Assembly (NCBI RefSeq): GCF_004341505.2
Contig: NZ_SLYP02000001.1
Span: 2,566,501-2,630,500 of the forward strand
Direction: 5' to 3'
Length of the DNA: 64,000 bases
Source of the DNA: Sphingomonas sp. JUb134
GTDB lineage: Bacteria; Pseudomonadota; Alphaproteobacteria; Sphingomonadales; Sphingomonadaceae
Shown here: in pieces, positions 2,803 through 45,188 of the stretch
Layout of the letters: every line of letters begins with the position of its first letter
How positions within the stretch are numbered: the first letter of the stretch is position 1
Made by a program: the position numbers and the translations under genes
Notes under the pieces: generated by a model
Told to the model about the DNA's origin: nothing
Databases searched by the model: none
Seen by the model: only the letters and a program-made list of their open reading frames with translations

Positions 2803-4821
2803 TCAGTTCGGCAAGCTGGCCAGCATGTCCGCCGTCAGCAGTTGCGGGAGGACCTTCGGCGCTTCTGCGCCCGGCGTGTACCAGAGGTAGAGCGGCACGC
2901 CGGCGCGGCCATGCGCCTCCAGGAAGCGGCCGAGCGCCGGATCGCCGTCGGTCCAGTCGCCGACCAGAACCTGCACGCCCTTGGCTCGGAAGGCGTCGCG
3001 GACGCGGGCGGTCTCGATCGCCGTCTTCTCGTTGACCTTGCAGGTGACGCACCAGTCGGCGGTGAAATAGGCGAACACGGGCTTGCCCGTCCCGCGGTGT
3101 TCGGCGAGCCGGGCTTCGCTGAACGGTTCGGTGCCGGCGACGGCGGCCTCGGCACGAGCGGGCGCGCGCTGGACGCTCACGATCGCGAGCCCTGCGACCA
3201 GCAGGGCCGGCAGCATCGGCCACCCGGCGCGGGGACGGCCGCTCGCCTGGCGAAGCCCGGTCCACCACAGCGCGAGGCCGAGCAACAACGCGGCGCCGAG
3301 GCCCCAGGCCATGCCGTCCACCCCCGCCTGCTGGCCGAGGATCCAGGCGAGCGCGAGCGCGGTCGCGAACATCGGCAGCGACAGGATGCGCTGGAGCCGC
3401 CCCGTCCAGGCGCCGGGGCGCGGCAGGCGGCGGCGCAGCGCGGGGACGAAGCCCAGCAGCAGGAACGGCAATGCCAGACCCAACCCGAGCCCGGCGAACA
3501 CCGCGAGCGCCGCCAGCGTCGGCAGCACCAGCGCAGCGCCGAGCGCCGCCCCCAGGAACGGACCGGTGCAGGGCGTCGCGACAAAGGCGGCGAGCGCCCC
3601 GGTGGCGAACGCGCCGGCGGCCCCGCTCTCGCCGGCAAACCGCGGCGTCGGCAGGGTGAACAGCCCGGCGAGATTGAGCGCCACGCCGGTCACCAGCAGC
3701 AGCAGCAGCAGAATGACGCGGGGGTCCTGGAGCTGGAACGCCCAGCCGGCAGCGACACCCGCGGCGCGCAGGGCCAGCATCGCCCCGCCCAGCGCCAGGC
3801 ACGTCACCAGCACGCCGGCTGTATAGGCCAGCGCCTCCTGCCGGGCGCCCCGCTCGGACCCGCCCGCCCGCGCCAGATGCAGCGCCTTGAGGCTCAGGAT
3901 CGGGAAGACGCAGGGCATGACGTTGAGGATCAGGCCACCGGTGAGGGCCCCGAGCAGCGCCAGCAGGATGGTGCTGCCGTGCCCCCTTGGCTCCGCGACG
4001 GTGCCGGGTCGGGCGGAGACGGTGAACGCCTGGCCAGTGCCGGTCGCCAGCACGCCTTCGATCCGCTCGGGGGTAGCGCCTTCCGCAGCGTCGGTCTCGA
4101 TCACCAGCAGGTCGCCGTCGCGCGCCACCCTTTGCGGTGCGCTGTAGGAAAGCGCACCCTTCGTGAGCGGATAGAAATAGGCGTCCGCCGCGCTTTGGCT
4201 CGCCGGGAAGGGAATGCCGATGCGGATACGCGCCGCCTGCCCCTCCTGTACGACCGCGAACTGCGCGGGAGAGCCGAGCGGCCGCGGCAGGGCCGCGCGC
4301 CACCGGTCGAACAGGGCGCGACGCTCCGGCGTGATGCGACCGTCGCCCACGGTGAGGTCGATGGCGAGATCGGCATGTTCGGGAACGCACAATTGCTCGG
4401 TGCAGACCAGGTAGTCGCTGCGCACCCGCACCGGCAGGCGGGTGCCGGGCGCAAGTCCCGCCGCCAGCTTCAGCCGCACGAGCTGGGCGAACGGCCCCTC
4501 ATAAACATAGTTCATCAGCCCGGCGACGGTCAGCCGCTGGGGAACCGGGTAGAGCAGCGGCCCCGCCGTCATGCCTGCGGGGAGCGCCCAGTCGAGCCGG
4601 GTGGCGACGCCGGCGTCGCCGGGGTTCTGCCAATAGCCGTGCCAGCCCGGCTGCGGCGTGGAATCGAACGCCAGCGTGACCGTATCGCCAGCGGCAGGCG
4701 TCTCCGTCTCGGCGACCAGCCGGACGGCGATGTGCGGCCCTTGGTTCGGCGCCTGCGCGCGGGCGCCCACCGGGCCGAGCAGCGCCAGCACCGCCAGAAG
4801 CATGAAACAGAAGCGCGCCAT
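2803..4821 (-). CDS. DsbD-family thiol:disulfide interchange protein
   Basis: A 672-residue inner-membrane protein that carries electrons from cytoplasmic thioredoxin to periplasmic thiols. It has a signal peptide (MARFCFMLLAVLALLGPVGARA), a periplasmic N-terminal DsbD-alpha/DsbC-like region, then a multi-helix CcdA-type membrane core with its two redox cysteines in NVMPCVFPIL and VATPCTGPFLG, and a C-terminal thioredoxin domain with WCVTCK. All redox cysteines expected for an active electron relay are present. The start at 4821 is chosen because AAGGAAGG sits just upstream and the signal peptide follows; an in-frame upstream ATG would put 16 polar residues before it. It is divergent from the phosphatase gene across 85 bp that must hold both promoters. 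Confidence 0.92.
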   Translation of the reverse strand: MARFCFMLLAVLALLGPVGARAQAPNQGPHIAVRLVAETETPAAGDTVTLAFDSTPQPGWHGYWQNPGDAGVATRLDWALPAGMTAGPLLYPVPQRLTVAGLMNYVYEGPFAQLVRLKLAAGLAPGTRLPVRVRSDYLVCTEQLCVPEHADLAIDLTVGDGRITPERRALFDRWRAALPRPLGSPAQFAVVQEGQAARIRIGIPFPASQSAADAYFYPLTKGALSYSAPQRVARDGDLLVIETDAAEGATPERIEGVLATGTGQAFTVSARPGTVAEPRGHGSTILLALLGALTGGLILNVMPCVFPILSLKALHLARAGGSERGARQEALAYTAGVLVTCLALGGAMLALRAAGVAAGWAFQLQDPRVILLLLLLVTGVALNLAGLFTLPTPRFAGESGAAGAFATGALAAFVATPCTGPFLGAALGAALVLPTLAALAVFAGLGLGLALPFLLLGFVPALRRRLPRPGAWTGRLQRILSLPMFATALALAWILGQQAGVDGMAWGLGAALLLGLALWWTGLRQASGRPRAGWPMLPALLVAGLAIVSVQRAPARAEAAVAGTEPFSEARLAEHRGTGKPVFAYFTADWCVTCKVNEKTAIETARVRDAFRAKGVQVLVGDWTDGDPALGRFLEAHGRAGVPLYLWYTPGAEAPKVLPQLLTADMLASLPN

Positions 4822-41206: not shown

Positions 41207-41654
41207 GCTGACCACCAATCCGGCCGACGCCGGCTTCCTGCGCTTTCGCGACGATGCCCCGCATGACGAGCCGGCGGTGACGCTGGACGCGTTCCTGGGC
41301 CAGTCCAACGCCACGGCGGTGCGGCTGGAGGCGGGCGACGATGCGCGGGCGCTGCTCCCCTATCTCGACCGAATCGCGCTGGTGGAAGTGAGCTTCCCCA
41401 AGTTCCGCGACGGGCGCGGCTATTCGTCGGCGCGGGTGCTGCGCGAGGCAGGGTACGAGGGCGAGCTGCGTGCACAGGGCGACGTGCTGGTCGACCAGCT
41501 GCTGCCGATGCGACGGTGCGGGTTCGACAGCTTCGCGCCCGAGGCGCCGATCGATCGGGCGACGGCGGAGGCAGCGCTGAGCCGCTACGCGCACTTCTAC
41601 CAGCGGGCGGCCGATCCGGTGCAACCGGTGTGGAAACTGCGTCATGGGCAATAG
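41199..41654 (+). CDS. DUF934 protein of the sulfite reduction operon
   Basis: A 151-residue protein with the DUF934 core FPKFRDGRGYSSARVLREAGY and GDVLVDQLLPMRRCGFDSF. These proteins are encoded with sulfite reductase and CysH in many proteobacteria and are presumed accessory factors in sulfur assimilation. The ATG overlaps the reductase stop, and the 3' end overlaps the cysH start by 11 bp, so the three are tightly coupled. Confidence 0.9.
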   Translation: MAELTTNPADAGFLRFRDDAPHDEPAVTLDAFLGQSNATAVRLEAGDDARALLPYLDRIALVEVSFPKFRDGRGYSSARVLREAGYEGELRAQGDVLVDQLLPMRRCGFDSFAPEAPIDRATAEAALSRYAHFYQRAADPVQPVWKLRHGQ

Positions 41655-42411
41655 CGCGCTGCGCATCATCGACCGGCTGGACGTCGCACCCCGCTTCACG
41701 CTGGCGGATGCGGCGCAGCTGAACGAGCGGTTCCGGGGCGTCGACACGCAGGAGATGCTGCGCGTGGCGCTCGGCGAAGGGCTGCTGGGCGAAGTGGCGG
41801 TGGTGTCGTCGTTCGGGGCGGAGTCGGCGGCGCTGCTGCACCTGGTGGCGAGCGTCGACCGGTCGGTGCCGGTGCTGTTCCTCGATACCGGCAAGCATTT
41901 TGCCGAGACGATCGCCTATCGCGACGAACTGGTGCGCTTCCTGGGGCTCACCGACCTGCGCATTCTCCAGCCCGATGCCGAGCGGCTGGCGGCGCGCGAC
42001 GAGAGCGGGTTGCGCTGGTCCTACGATCCCGACGGCTGCTGCGAGATCCGCAAGGTCGAGCCGCTCGCCCGCGGGCTCGCCGGGTTCGACGCGAGCTTCA
42101 CCGGGCGCAAGGCGTTCCAGGCGGCGACGCGCGCGAACCTGCCGCGCTTCGAGCTGGATGGCGACCGGCTGAAGGTGAACCCGCTGATCACCTGGTCCAA
42201 GGAAGAGCTCGACGCCTATTTCGCCGCGCACGACCTGCCGGTGACCCCGCTGGTGGCGATGGGCTATCCGTCGATCGGCTGCCAGCCGTGCACCAACAAG
42301 GTAGCGCCGGGCGAAGACCCGCGCTCCGGCCGCTGGAGCGGCTGGAACAAGACCGAATGCGGGATCCACACCCCCATTCCCGACGGCGACCCCAACCAGC
42401 CCGTCTTCTGA
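41644..42411 (+). CDS. cysH: [4Fe-4S] phosphoadenylyl/adenylyl-sulfate reductase
   Basis: A 255-residue enzyme that reduces activated sulfate to sulfite. SSFGAESAALLHLVA is the ATP-pyrophosphatase-like P-loop, CCEIRKVEPL and GCQPCTNKV supply the four cluster cysteines, and the C-terminal TECGIH has the catalytic Cys. The CC..CxxC set indicates the iron-sulfur class usually specific for APS rather than PAPS. Last gene of the operon. A 779-bp non-coding region follows. Confidence 0.93.
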   Translation: MGNSALRIIDRLDVAPRFTLADAAQLNERFRGVDTQEMLRVALGEGLLGEVAVVSSFGAESAALLHLVASVDRSVPVLFLDTGKHFAETIAYRDELVRFLGLTDLRILQPDAERLAARDESGLRWSYDPDGCCEIRKVEPLARGLAGFDASFTGRKAFQAATRANLPRFELDGDRLKVNPLITWSKEELDAYFAAHDLPVTPLVAMGYPSIGCQPCTNKVAPGEDPRSGRWSGWNKTECGIHTPIPDGDPNQPVF

Positions 42412-42564
42412 CCGGCCGCGGCTTAGCCGCGCTGCGTCTCCCCCTCGCGCCCTCGGTGCTCTTGCCAAAGCGGGAGACCGGGGGCGTTTGCGTATCGCCC
42501 TGGAAGTCTGGCGCTCTCGTGGTTGCGGGAGGGCTTTTGCGCGCCTGGGGCATGTGGGCGGGGC

Positions 42565-42776
42565 TGTGGATAAGTTGTTGGCGGGCGGTGGGTGGGGCGT
42601 TGGCTCGGGGTGGATCGGGCCTTGAATGTGGCGGTGGACAGGCTGTGGGCAGCTTGTGGACGGTATGTGGACAGGATGTGCAAGGGGCTGTGGATAAGCT
42701 GTGGATAGTGCGTGCATGAATACGTGCACCGATCGGTGAATGGTCGCTTCACAAGCTGTGGATAAGTTGTGGAGGG
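42565..42776 (+). other. Cluster of DnaA-box-like sequences (candidate replication or titration locus)
   Basis: Within 212 bp, all on one strand, there are three perfect TGTGGATAA boxes (42565-42573, 42689-42697, 42757-42765) and five near matches: TGTGGGCAG 42644-42652, TGTGGACGG 42655-42663, TGTGGACAG 42666-42674, TGTGGATAG 42700-42708 and TGTGGAGGG 42768-42776. A 12-bp palindrome CACCGATCGGTG lies at 42727-42738. No gene is seen between cysH and the DUF3088 gene (42412-43190). There is no obvious AT-rich unwinding element, so this could be oriC, a DnaA titration site, or a regulatory cluster. Confidence 0.6.
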
Positions 42777-42957
42777 ATACCACCGCAGCGGTCGAGAATT
42801 GCCGGTGATTGTGGCGCAGCCGACGGATGTCACAAGCGAGAAGGCGTAGCCCGGCAAAGGTCCGAACCAGTTGGGAGGATGGTGTGGGGGCGCGCGGACT
42901 TCGACAACACCGCGCCTGATCCCCGGTTTCAGGGACCTTCGCCCAGACCCTCGCCGT

Positions 42958-43042
42958 GCTCCTGCGCAGGCAGGAGCCCAGGGTTCTGGAACGCCGCAAG
43001 CGGTTGTTCTGCTTGGCCCTGGATTCCTGCTTGCGCAGGAAT
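42958..43042. repeat. Paired hairpin repeat (composite element A)
   Basis: Hairpin 1 at 42958-42977 (GCTCCTGC, loop, GCAGGAGC, then CCAGGG) and hairpin 2 at 43023-43042 (ATTCCTGC, loop, GCAGGAAT), joined by a 45-bp linker ending TCTGCTTGGCCCTGGAT. The same architecture and the same 17-bp linker motif recur at 46942-47025. It lies between the DnaA-box cluster and the DUF3088 gene. Confidence 0.8.
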
Positions 43043-43132
43043 ACGGCGGGATCGGGGAGCTGTTGTGGGTTTCGCAGCAGTCCCGTTGGAGGGCGGCCGG
43101 AACGGTGGTGCGCCTACGCCCGATGGCGCCGC

Positions 43133-43162
43133 AACTGGGCCCCCGGTCTTCGCCGGGGTACG
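43133..43162. repeat. Hairpin repeat of the CCCCGG..CCGGGG type
   Basis: AACTGGGC followed by CCCCGG-T-CTTC-G-CCGGGG-TACG. Near-identical to the element at 46868-46896, differing in the stem next to the loop. It lies 28 bp from the 3' end of the DUF3088 gene. Confidence 0.75.
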
Positions 43163-43190
43163 TGGTATATGAGGGTGGCGCCGTCGCGGG

Positions 43191-43556
43191 TTACGGGTGC
43201 CGGCGCGGGATGCCGTGCCGCGCCGCCAGCGCCTCCAGGATCGCGTCGCGGGTGCCGGCGAAGCGCAGGCCGTTCGCCTCACCGGTCGCGAGCGCCGCGG
43301 GCGCATCGTCGGCCAGGATCAGCAGGGGAAGCGACTGGTGCGCCTCCCCTACCAGCGCGACTACCCGCCCGCGCGGGCGGGCCCAGGCGACGTGCTCGAT
43401 GTCGAGGCGCTCGCGTAAGCCTGGATAGGCGGCGAGGACGCCTTCGATCACGATGCAGTCGAAGCAGAAATAATGCGCGTCCGGGTAGGCAGTATCGGTG
43501 CTTGCCGGGTCGATCAGGATCAGCCGGTCGCGCGTGCCCTGCCCCGCCTCACTCAT
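43191..43556 (-). CDS. DUF3088 protein
   Basis: A 121-residue protein with the DUF3088 features RDRLILIDPASTDTAYPDAH, YFCFDCIVIEGVLAAYPGL, ARPRGRVVALVGEAHQSLPLL and ADDAPAAL, a thioredoxin-like fold with a CxxC-like FCFDC. Function unknown. ATG at 43556 overlaps the dnaB stop by 8 bp, so it is translated from the dnaB transcript. The coupling to a replicative helicase is probably incidental. Confidence 0.82.
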   Translation of the reverse strand: MSEAGQGTRDRLILIDPASTDTAYPDAHYFCFDCIVIEGVLAAYPGLRERLDIEHVAWARPRGRVVALVGEAHQSLPLLILADDAPAALATGEANGLRFAGTRDAILEALAARHGIPRRHP

Positions 43557-45063
43557 TGTCGAAGCTGCCATAGCCTTCGCCGACATAGTCGCTGAAGCGC
43601 GTGATGGTCGGCTCGAACTTCATCGTGACCTTGCCGGTGGCGCCGTGGCGCTGCTTGGCGATGATGAGCTCGGCCAGACCATAGACGCGCTCCATGTCCA
43701 CCGCCCATTTCGCGTGATCCTCGAACACGCGGGCGTCGTCGCCGTCGCGCGGGCGCTTGGGCTCCTTGGCGGCGACGTAATAGTCCTCGCGGTACACGAA
43801 CCACACCATGTCGGCGTCCTGCTCGATCGAGCCGGATTCGCGAAGATCGGACAGCTGCGGGCGCTTGTCCTCGCGCTGCTCCACCGCGCGGCTGAGCTGG
43901 GAGAGCGCGATCACCGGCACGCCAATGTCCTTTGCAAGCGTCTTCAGGCCGCGGCTGATCTCCGAGATTTCGTTCACGCGGTTGTCGGAGCGGCCGGTGC
44001 CCTGCAGCAGCTGGAGATAGTCGACCACCACCAGGCCGAGCTGGTCGTCCAGGCGGCGGTGGAGACGGCGCACGCGCGTGTGCAGGCCGCTGATCGAAAG
44101 ACCGGCGGTGTCGTCGATGTAGAGCGGCAGCGATTCGAGATCGGCGGCGGCGTCGGCGAGCTTCACGAACTCCGCCTTGCTGATCTTGCCCATGCGCAAC
44201 GCTTCGGAACTGATGCCGGACTGTTCGGCGAGCACGCGGGTGGCGAGCTGGTCGGCCGACATTTCGAGGCTGAAGAACGCGACCTTCGCGCCCACCGACT
44301 TGCCCTTTTCAACGCCGGCGCGCTGGTCGTCCATGAAGCGGCGCGCGGCGTTGAAGGCAATGTTGGTGGCAAGCGAGGTCTTGCCCATGCCGGGACGGCC
44401 GGCGAGGATGATCAAGTCGGAATGGTGGAGACCACCGATCCGCGAGTTGATGCTGTCGAGGCCGGTGGTGACGCCCGACAGGCCGCCGCCCGAGTTGAGC
44501 GCGCGGTCGGCCATCTGCACGGCCATGGTCGTCGCCTGGGCGAAGCTCTTGACCGTGTTGGCGGTGGTGCCCTCGGCGGCGACGCGGAACAGCGCTTCTT
44601 CGGCCTGCTCGATCTGCTTGCGGGGATCGATCGTCTGGCTGGTGTCGAGCGCGTTCTCGACCAGCGTCGTGCCGACCGTGATCAGCGCACGCAGCTGGGC
44701 GAGGTCGTAGATCTGCTCGGCGAACTGCTTGGCGCCCAGGAGGCCCGCGCCGCTGCCGGTGAGCTGGGCGAGATAGCCGGGGCCACCCAGCTCGCGCATG
44801 CCGGAGTCGTCCTCGAACAGCGGGCGCAGCGTGACCGGGTTGGCCAGCATGTTCTGCCGGCGCACGTCGCGGATCTTTTCAAAGATGCGGGCGTGGACGG
44901 GCTCGAAGAAATGATCCGGCTCGAGTCGCTCGACGATGTCGTCGGCCAGCCGGTTGTCGATCATCATCGCGCCCAGCAGTGCCGCTTCCGCCTCGACGTT
45001 CTGGGGGAGGCGCGCAGCCGGGGACGGAGCGGACGAGCCGCCGATATGTGCAAGTGTGGCCAT
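43549..45063 (-). CDS. dnaB: Replicative DNA helicase DnaB
   Basis: A 504-residue hexameric helicase that unwinds DNA at the replication fork. The N-terminal domain (NVEAEAALLGAMMIDNRLAD) is followed by a linker and the RecA-like ATPase with Walker A GRPGMGKTSLATNIAF, FSLEMSADQLATRVLAE and LVVVDYLQLLQG (Walker B). The C-terminus is normal. ATG 45063 has AGG upstream. Divergent from UPF0262 over 125 bp, where one TGTGGACAG (45120-45128) repeats the variant seen in the DnaA-box cluster. Confidence 0.97.
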   Translation of the reverse strand: MATLAHIGGSSAPSPAARLPQNVEAEAALLGAMMIDNRLADDIVERLEPDHFFEPVHARIFEKIRDVRRQNMLANPVTLRPLFEDDSGMRELGGPGYLAQLTGSGAGLLGAKQFAEQIYDLAQLRALITVGTTLVENALDTSQTIDPRKQIEQAEEALFRVAAEGTTANTVKSFAQATTMAVQMADRALNSGGGLSGVTTGLDSINSRIGGLHHSDLIILAGRPGMGKTSLATNIAFNAARRFMDDQRAGVEKGKSVGAKVAFFSLEMSADQLATRVLAEQSGISSEALRMGKISKAEFVKLADAAADLESLPLYIDDTAGLSISGLHTRVRRLHRRLDDQLGLVVVDYLQLLQGTGRSDNRVNEISEISRGLKTLAKDIGVPVIALSQLSRAVEQREDKRPQLSDLRESGSIEQDADMVWFVYREDYYVAAKEPKRPRDGDDARVFEDHAKWAVDMERVYGLAELIIAKQRHGATGKVTMKFEPTITRFSDYVGEGYGSFDNE

Positions 45064-45188
45064 GGACCTGCTTTTCCCAGACGCGGCGGCCAAGCTCAAG
45101 CGACCCCAAGCGAAACATCTGTGGACAGGTGCGTTTTGCCGGCTTGGGCGTTGCCAAGGCGCGCCAAACGGCTAAGCGCTGCTCCACC

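Follow-up and report, generated by a model that had tools for sequence, protein, structure and literature searches.

Between cysH and dnaB, an intergenic gap of the Sphingomonas chromosome carries an array of about 220 bases made up of DnaA boxes that all point the same way. What is such an array doing there? An earlier note on this DNA, which had drawn attention to the cluster, offered three readings: a replication origin, a DnaA titration site such as datA, or a DnaA-regulated locus. These readings are weighed below against the architecture of the array, its place in the chromosome and its occurrence in relatives. The window is the whole stretch of DNA analysed, 64 kb long (C1:2566501-2630500), within an own genome of 4,115,562 bases (4.1 Mb) in 4 contigs; coordinates given without a contig refer to the window.

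Box scoring and motifs

The box matrix was set by hand, its weights being the author's own and derived from the consensus TGTGNAWAA; passages of the literature also give the DnaA motif in the form TTWTNCACA. General consensus motifs were used for DnaA, KOPS, IHF, CtrA, GANTC and dif. One matrix and one division of the boxes into core (the first six bases) and rest (tails and spacers) were tried.

Architecture of the array and its gene neighbourhood

The array occupies part of a non-coding gap that indeed measures 779 bp (42412-43190). It is bounded by the stops of two convergent reading frames, cysH on the plus strand and a DUF3088 ORF on the minus strand, the latter overlapping the 3' end of the likewise minus-strand dnaB. 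The ATG start of dnaB lies at 45063; the listed ORF begins at a TTG at 45099. Feature coordinates are collected in Table 1.

Table 1. Features of the cysH-dnaB region, in window coordinates
Feature	Position	Strand	Remarks
cysH, phosphoadenylyl-sulfate reductase; stop forms left gap boundary	41644..42411	+	PRK02090, 276 bits
Unidirectional DnaA-box array	42553..42776	+	14 boxes scoring at least 9.5, period ~11.3 bp; hand-set weights from TGTGNAWAA
Strong box 1, perfect TGTGGATAA	42565..42573	+	Identical in PL-96
Core, eight successive boxes 11-12 bp apart	42633..42719	+	PL-96 has one extra 12-bp unit here
Tandem pair TGTGGATAA-GC-TGTGGATAG, strong box 2 and neighbour	42689..42708	+	Pattern TGTGGATARNNTGTGGAYAR in 2 of 295 genus genomes
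Strong box 3 TGTGGATAA, then TGTGGAGGG 11 bp on	42757..42776	+	Identical in PL-96
DUF3088 ORF; stop forms right gap boundary	43191..43586	-	PF11287, 122 bits
dnaB, replicative helicase	43549..45063	-	PRK09165, 674 bits for 43549-45099
DnaA box TGTGGACAG upstream of dnaB	45120..45128	+	Same-orientation box in 19 of 19 testable relatives

The three perfect 9-bp boxes described earlier were found again on the plus strand (TGTGGATAA at 42565, 42689 and 42757), and the claim of close variants in a single orientation turned out to be an understatement, given that the matrix finds 14 sites at a score of at least 9.5, every one of them on the plus strand. With the same matrix, no match on the minus strand of the gap exceeds 9.6 of 16. 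The core boxes start at 42633 (GGTGGACAG), 42644 (TGTGGGCAG), 42655 (TGTGGACGG), 42666 (TGTGGACAG), 42677 (TGTGCAAGG), 42689, 42700 (TGTGGATAG) and 42711, and a further variant, TGTGGAGGG, follows the third perfect box at 42768. The tandem pattern TGTGGATARNNTGTGGAYAR occurs in two of 295 genus genomes, the own genome counted.

The regular phasing of the boxes, 11-12 bp apart, adds to the earlier description. The best period is about 11.3 bp, with a phasing of R=0.967 that none of 5000 random placements reached, the period being fitted in both. The 12-bp palindrome that had been pointed out is present (CACCGATCGGTG, 42727-42738) and is probably irrelevant, since the sister genome, Sphingomonas sp. 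PL-96, has not retained it. Two other kinds of element were considered and rejected: as RNA, the array gave two miRNA-family matches far under their gathering scores, and as coding sequence it showed substitutions distributed over the codon positions as 12, 9 and 12, without bias.

Enrichment over chance and uniqueness in the genome

The best 250 bp of the gap reach a box score of 70.9, whereas 300 dinucleotide shuffles of the gap gave a mean of 12.0 (sd 3.6) and a maximum of 23.8, which bears out the claim of a density far above chance. The detail is less striking when boxes with 0-1 mismatch are merely counted over the 64-kb window: five were found where 1.86 would be expected, a count that was also reached in 5 of 100 shuffles. 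Across the whole genome, a count that the note had proposed, TGTGGATAA occurs six times, three of them in the array, compared with 13 occurrences of the reversed pattern; similarly, there are 20 occurrences of TGTGGAYAR and 60 of its reversed control. Since box words are thus rarer than their reversed controls, stray boxes may be costly to the cell.

Comparable density at many intergenic sites, which would have spoken against a special locus, was not encountered in the sampled own DNA (808.5 kb in 39 pieces, the 64-kb window among them). There the array is the top-scoring 250-bp window, its 70.9 being more than twice the second-best score of 30.1, which falls at the hemE oriC. No second array of the same pattern was found in the own genome.

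Position relative to the origin and terminus

The reading as a replication origin is not supported, for several features instead mark a hemE locus 1.38 Mb away. In most Sphingomonadaceae recorded in DoriC, oriC lies near hemE, according to a passage of PMC4741004. In the own genome, an oriC of the hemE/rho type is located at C1:556.6 kb; hemE itself (C1:555403-556422) is flanked by rho on one side and by a PpsR-type regulator and coaE on the other, with DnaA boxes at 556596 and 556718 between hemE and the regulator. This neighbourhood spans about C1:553-557 kb, whereas the array neighbours cysH and dnaB. GC skew, another check that had been suggested, is negative in the samples from 200 to 545 kb and positive at 600 kb and from 800 to 1400 kb, with an exception at 700 kb, and becomes weak and mixed from 1.4 to 2.7 Mb. 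Both GC skew and KOPS (GGGNAGGG) polarity switch between the 0.545- and 0.600-Mb samples, away from the array. Moreover, the previously reported lack of an AT-rich element holds: the AT-richest 30-mer has 57% AT in the gap and 70% at the hemE locus, where there are also seven GANTC sites compared with one in the gap.

Measured from oriC toward its antipode, the array lies at 81% of the half chromosome. A position at the terminus was also considered. From 2.30 Mb through 0 to 0.56 Mb the sampled KOPS favour the minus strand, as do those of the 64-kb window (3 on plus, 15 on minus), except that the 2.9-Mb sample has 3 on each strand; between 0.60 and 2.2 Mb they favour the plus strand. The array is probably not the terminus, since the second switch in polarity lies between the sample that begins at 2.20 Mb and the one that begins at 2.30 Mb. 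A first dif-like pattern yielded nothing convincing on C1. A dif-like 18-mer was found at C1:2240844-2240861, within the second KOPS switch interval and about 0.37 Mb from the array; its left half is presumably not a good XerC arm, and it is taken here as a dif candidate only.

Some further observations concern the contigs rather than the array. The 411-kb contig carries two identical dif-like words, TTCGATAATAGTTCTTATGTTAA, at C2:8317-8339 and C2:397020-397042, which are possibly XerCD sites. At C2:164567-164682 (L041, L006), two of the few DnaA boxes in the genome are found near RepA-like and ParB-like partition genes, in what is probably the origin region of this contig. In addition, nineteen equal-scoring AAA+ matches were obtained in ORFs of 309-326 aa on contigs C1 and C2, one of them at L036:2090-2971. 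These ORFs probably encode IstB of an IS21-type element, and inversions between the copies could have disturbed the GC skew.

Conservation at the cysH locus

A search for cysH in the named genomes returned 80 loci, of which 78 had at least 1 kb behind the gene. An array was found behind cysH at only one of these 78, in Sphingomonas sp. PL-96 (L045), with a score of 64.6 against 22.1 for the next best. A DNA search with 42412-43000 against 295 genus genomes, the own genome included, likewise found a single further match over nearly the full length (G079, 86%), which is taken to be PL-96. A further 150 genomes match the query and, among the matches listed, all map from 42910 on, near a REP-like repeat. 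This inverted repeat (42952-43048) consists of two 32-nt arms that are 84% complementary and has a second copy in the own genome at C1:2643527-2643580; among the matches listed, the genus genomes other than G079 map to or beside its left arm.

Conservation of the box positions in other genomes, which the note had proposed to check, is therefore confined to one relative: the three strong boxes are unchanged in PL-96, several weak boxes differ, and the other 77 cysH loci lack the array. Within this pair, 82 of 84 core positions are identical compared with 116 of 140 in the tails and spacers (Fisher p 0.0004), and from this excess conservation of the cores it follows that something probably binds the boxes.

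Similar arrays at other loci

A three-box pattern, defined as boxes exactly 11 bp apart with up to two mismatches, was found in 9 of 295 genus genomes and its reversal in none; the remaining 286 do not contain it anywhere. Besides the cysH/dnaB gap of the own genome and G079, the loci are upstream of a tldD/pmbA-like gene (G172 and G277), upstream of alr (G059 and G130), about 1.2 kb from alr (G231) and between a sensor-kinase gene and ccoN (G218), and G237 is the ninth genome. In the tldD/pmbA-like array, cores are again better conserved than the rest between G172 and G277 (54/66 vs 50/88 identical, p 0.0008), and in the alr arrays of G059 and G130 core conservation is marginal (p 0.055 and 0.025). 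In six genomes, array and hemE share a contig, which was treated as the complete circular chromosome; their distance was 0.13-0.20 of the half chromosome in four, 0.81 in the own genome and 0.95 in G218.

Extending the scan to the family gave 29 of 397 genomes, in 15 of 96 genera, against two for the reversed pattern. The 28 loci outside the own genome comprise eight between pssA and rpsB, seven before an SDR oxidoreductase gene, five before dnaB, where phased arrays stand directly upstream of the gene, three just past the 3' end of dnaA, three inside the rluD coding sequence, which are to be discounted, and two left over (L260, L261). Three TGTGG words 11-12 bp apart occurred in 46 of 295 genomes, with the reversed control also often positive; a recurring match of this kind, inspected in G077, lay inside an SDR gene, and other similar matches were assumed to be alike. 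A wide-gap version of the three-box pattern occurred in 3 of 201 genus genomes, the own genome not among them.

Taken as a family-wide pattern, these loci tentatively suggest that Sphingomonadaceae might control DnaA through phased unidirectional arrays outside oriC that have no fixed address. Under this proposal, which is possible but has the odds somewhat against it, each clade would have its own intergenic site (the cysH/dnaB gap, tldD, alr, rpsB, the SDR oxidoreductase gene, dnaB or past the dnaA 3' end), and selection would keep cores and phase as the site itself is replaced.

A separate observation was made in G096 (L211, G096:C7:121000-130000), where a dense DnaA-box cluster at about 4489-4708 spans two strands and is unphased. 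It is situated where a Cupin_5 gene and a 2'-5' RNA ligase-like gene converge, in the gap between them, and in part overlaps the end of the second gene.

Proposed function and comparison with known systems

Sites that titrate or inactivate DnaA have been described chiefly in E. coli and Bacillus, and a literature search by titles and abstract openings found no description of such a site in sphingomonads. The remaining reading of the array, for which the chances are judged to be about even, is that it binds a DnaA oligomer and thereby titrates or inactivates DnaA, in the manner of datA or the Bacillus DnaA-box clusters (DBCs). The own genome has dnaA, and phasing and core conservation favour binding, with DnaA as the putative bound protein. 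Several DnaA molecules would assemble head to tail along a single face of the helix, the three perfect boxes nucleating binding and the weaker boxes, about one helical turn apart, filling cooperatively. The complex would start no replication because the gap lacks an unwinding element, a conclusion to which its GANTC count relative to the hemE locus also points; rather, it may hold DnaA off oriC and perhaps promote ATP hydrolysis, thereby acting as a sink or inactivator. Such a role would be the simplest that needs no promoter.

The head-to-tail oligomer is predicted from the geometry that the array shares with E. coli oriC, with the strong boxes as anchors. There, as described in passages of PMC4451416, weak boxes form one-direction arrays with 2-bp gaps, which place them on one helix face, and are filled cooperatively by DnaA. 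The present array resembles the left and right arrays of E. coli oriC in its one-way boxes, 2-bp gaps and flanking strong boxes (PMC4451416, same passages). However, it lies off the origin, no unwinding element was found in it, and it has about 14 one-way sites instead of two facing sets of four.

Clusters of DnaA boxes outside oriC are already known. E. coli datA, as described in passages of PMC5295017, groups several strong DnaA boxes in a non-coding region distant from oriC and works with IHF. The array likewise has a number of boxes in a non-coding region that is not the origin, but it is far from oriC, has more boxes and is strictly phased. With the IHF motif, no box-independent site was found in the gap: two 1-mismatch matches both overlap boxes, and there is one 2-mismatch match. 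datA lies nearer oriC and needs an IHF site for its activity, which consists in hydrolysing DnaA-ATP and delaying initiation.

The Bacillus clusters are called 'oriC-proximal' in a title cited in PMC5295017. One passage of that source states that B. subtilis lacking all six DBCs initiates early, and another denies the Bacillus DBCs a significant role. Like the DBCs, the array is a cluster of DnaA boxes outside oriC, in its case one predicted to bind DnaA; unlike them, it is lineage-specific, origin-distal and the single array of its pattern in its genome. E. coli DARS1 and DARS2 are also non-coding loci outside oriC and bind DnaA, as the array is predicted to. DARS require a head-to-head box pair according to a passage of PMC10380432; since all 14 array boxes point one way and head-to-head boxes I and II are absent, a DARS is excluded. 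In the literature searched, no description was found of a sphingomonad array that is phased, one-way and so long, or of a change in its place from clade to clade.

Against titration stand the restriction of the array at cysH to two sister genomes, its position far toward the antipode when the precedents lie nearer oriC, the failure to find a box-independent IHF site, the weak boxes that differ in PL-96, the marginal alr pair and the many genus genomes without the pattern. If the array does bind DnaA, it offers a small deletable element whose removal is predicted to cause earlier or more frequent initiation; PL-96 would be a natural variant with an extra unit, and the wider pattern would trace how such sites move.

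Alternative explanations

It is unlikely, although there is evidence for it, that the array controls nearby transcription, either in concert with the dnaB-promoter box, at a distance of 2.3 kb, or by blocking convergent read-through between cysH and dnaB. The dnaB-promoter box, TGTGGACAG at 45120-45128, is present as claimed and is conserved. Among 21 cysH loci with a dnaB match, 19 were testable (L048 and L065 are partial), and all 19 of these Sphingomonadaceae loci have a same-strand box scoring at least 13 upstream of dnaB, compared with 7.3% of random 380-bp windows from the same loci and 0-7 of 19 with 30 column-shuffled matrices. Furthermore, a passage of PMC8203912 counts dnaB of Caulobacter in the DnaA regulon and gives DnaA boxes predicted for it, and the five family genomes with phased arrays directly upstream of dnaB point the same way. 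From sequence, we read this as dnaB being under DnaA control separately from the array, and the promoter box as a second testable DnaA target. For the array itself, the idea of a DnaA-regulated locus does not carry over: lying between convergent genes, it is not an ordinary promoter, and a simple sigma-70 scan of 42300-43300 found no promoter-like site. Related species of the genus have their arrays at tldD, alr and ccoN rather than dnaB, and the 18 other loci with a dnaB box lack an array behind cysH.

Alternatively, the array could bind DnaA without measurable effect, as a tolerated decoy. Its narrow phylogenetic range and sporadic occurrence in the genus would fit this explanation, which is nevertheless considered improbable, as cores are conserved in two species pairs and box words are rarer than reversed controls in the own genome.

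A neutral 11-12-bp minisatellite that resembles DnaA boxes by chance is a doubtful explanation as well. A repeat search does detect degenerate direct repeats, and the extra 12-bp unit in PL-96 is what such an element might gain. However, spacers differ from unit to unit, unlike those of a young minisatellite, at two unrelated loci the cores are better conserved than the spacers, and the motif recurs at unrelated loci when the reversed pattern does not.

Finally, a secondary or relic replication origin is very improbable: the boxes are phased and one-way as in oriC arrays and the cluster is denser than the hemE oriC, but plasmid and phage collections contain no match, which also disposes of a plasmid or phage derivation, the gap has no AT-rich element and fewer GANTC sites than the hemE locus, and skew and KOPS polarity switch at 0.545-0.600 Mb.
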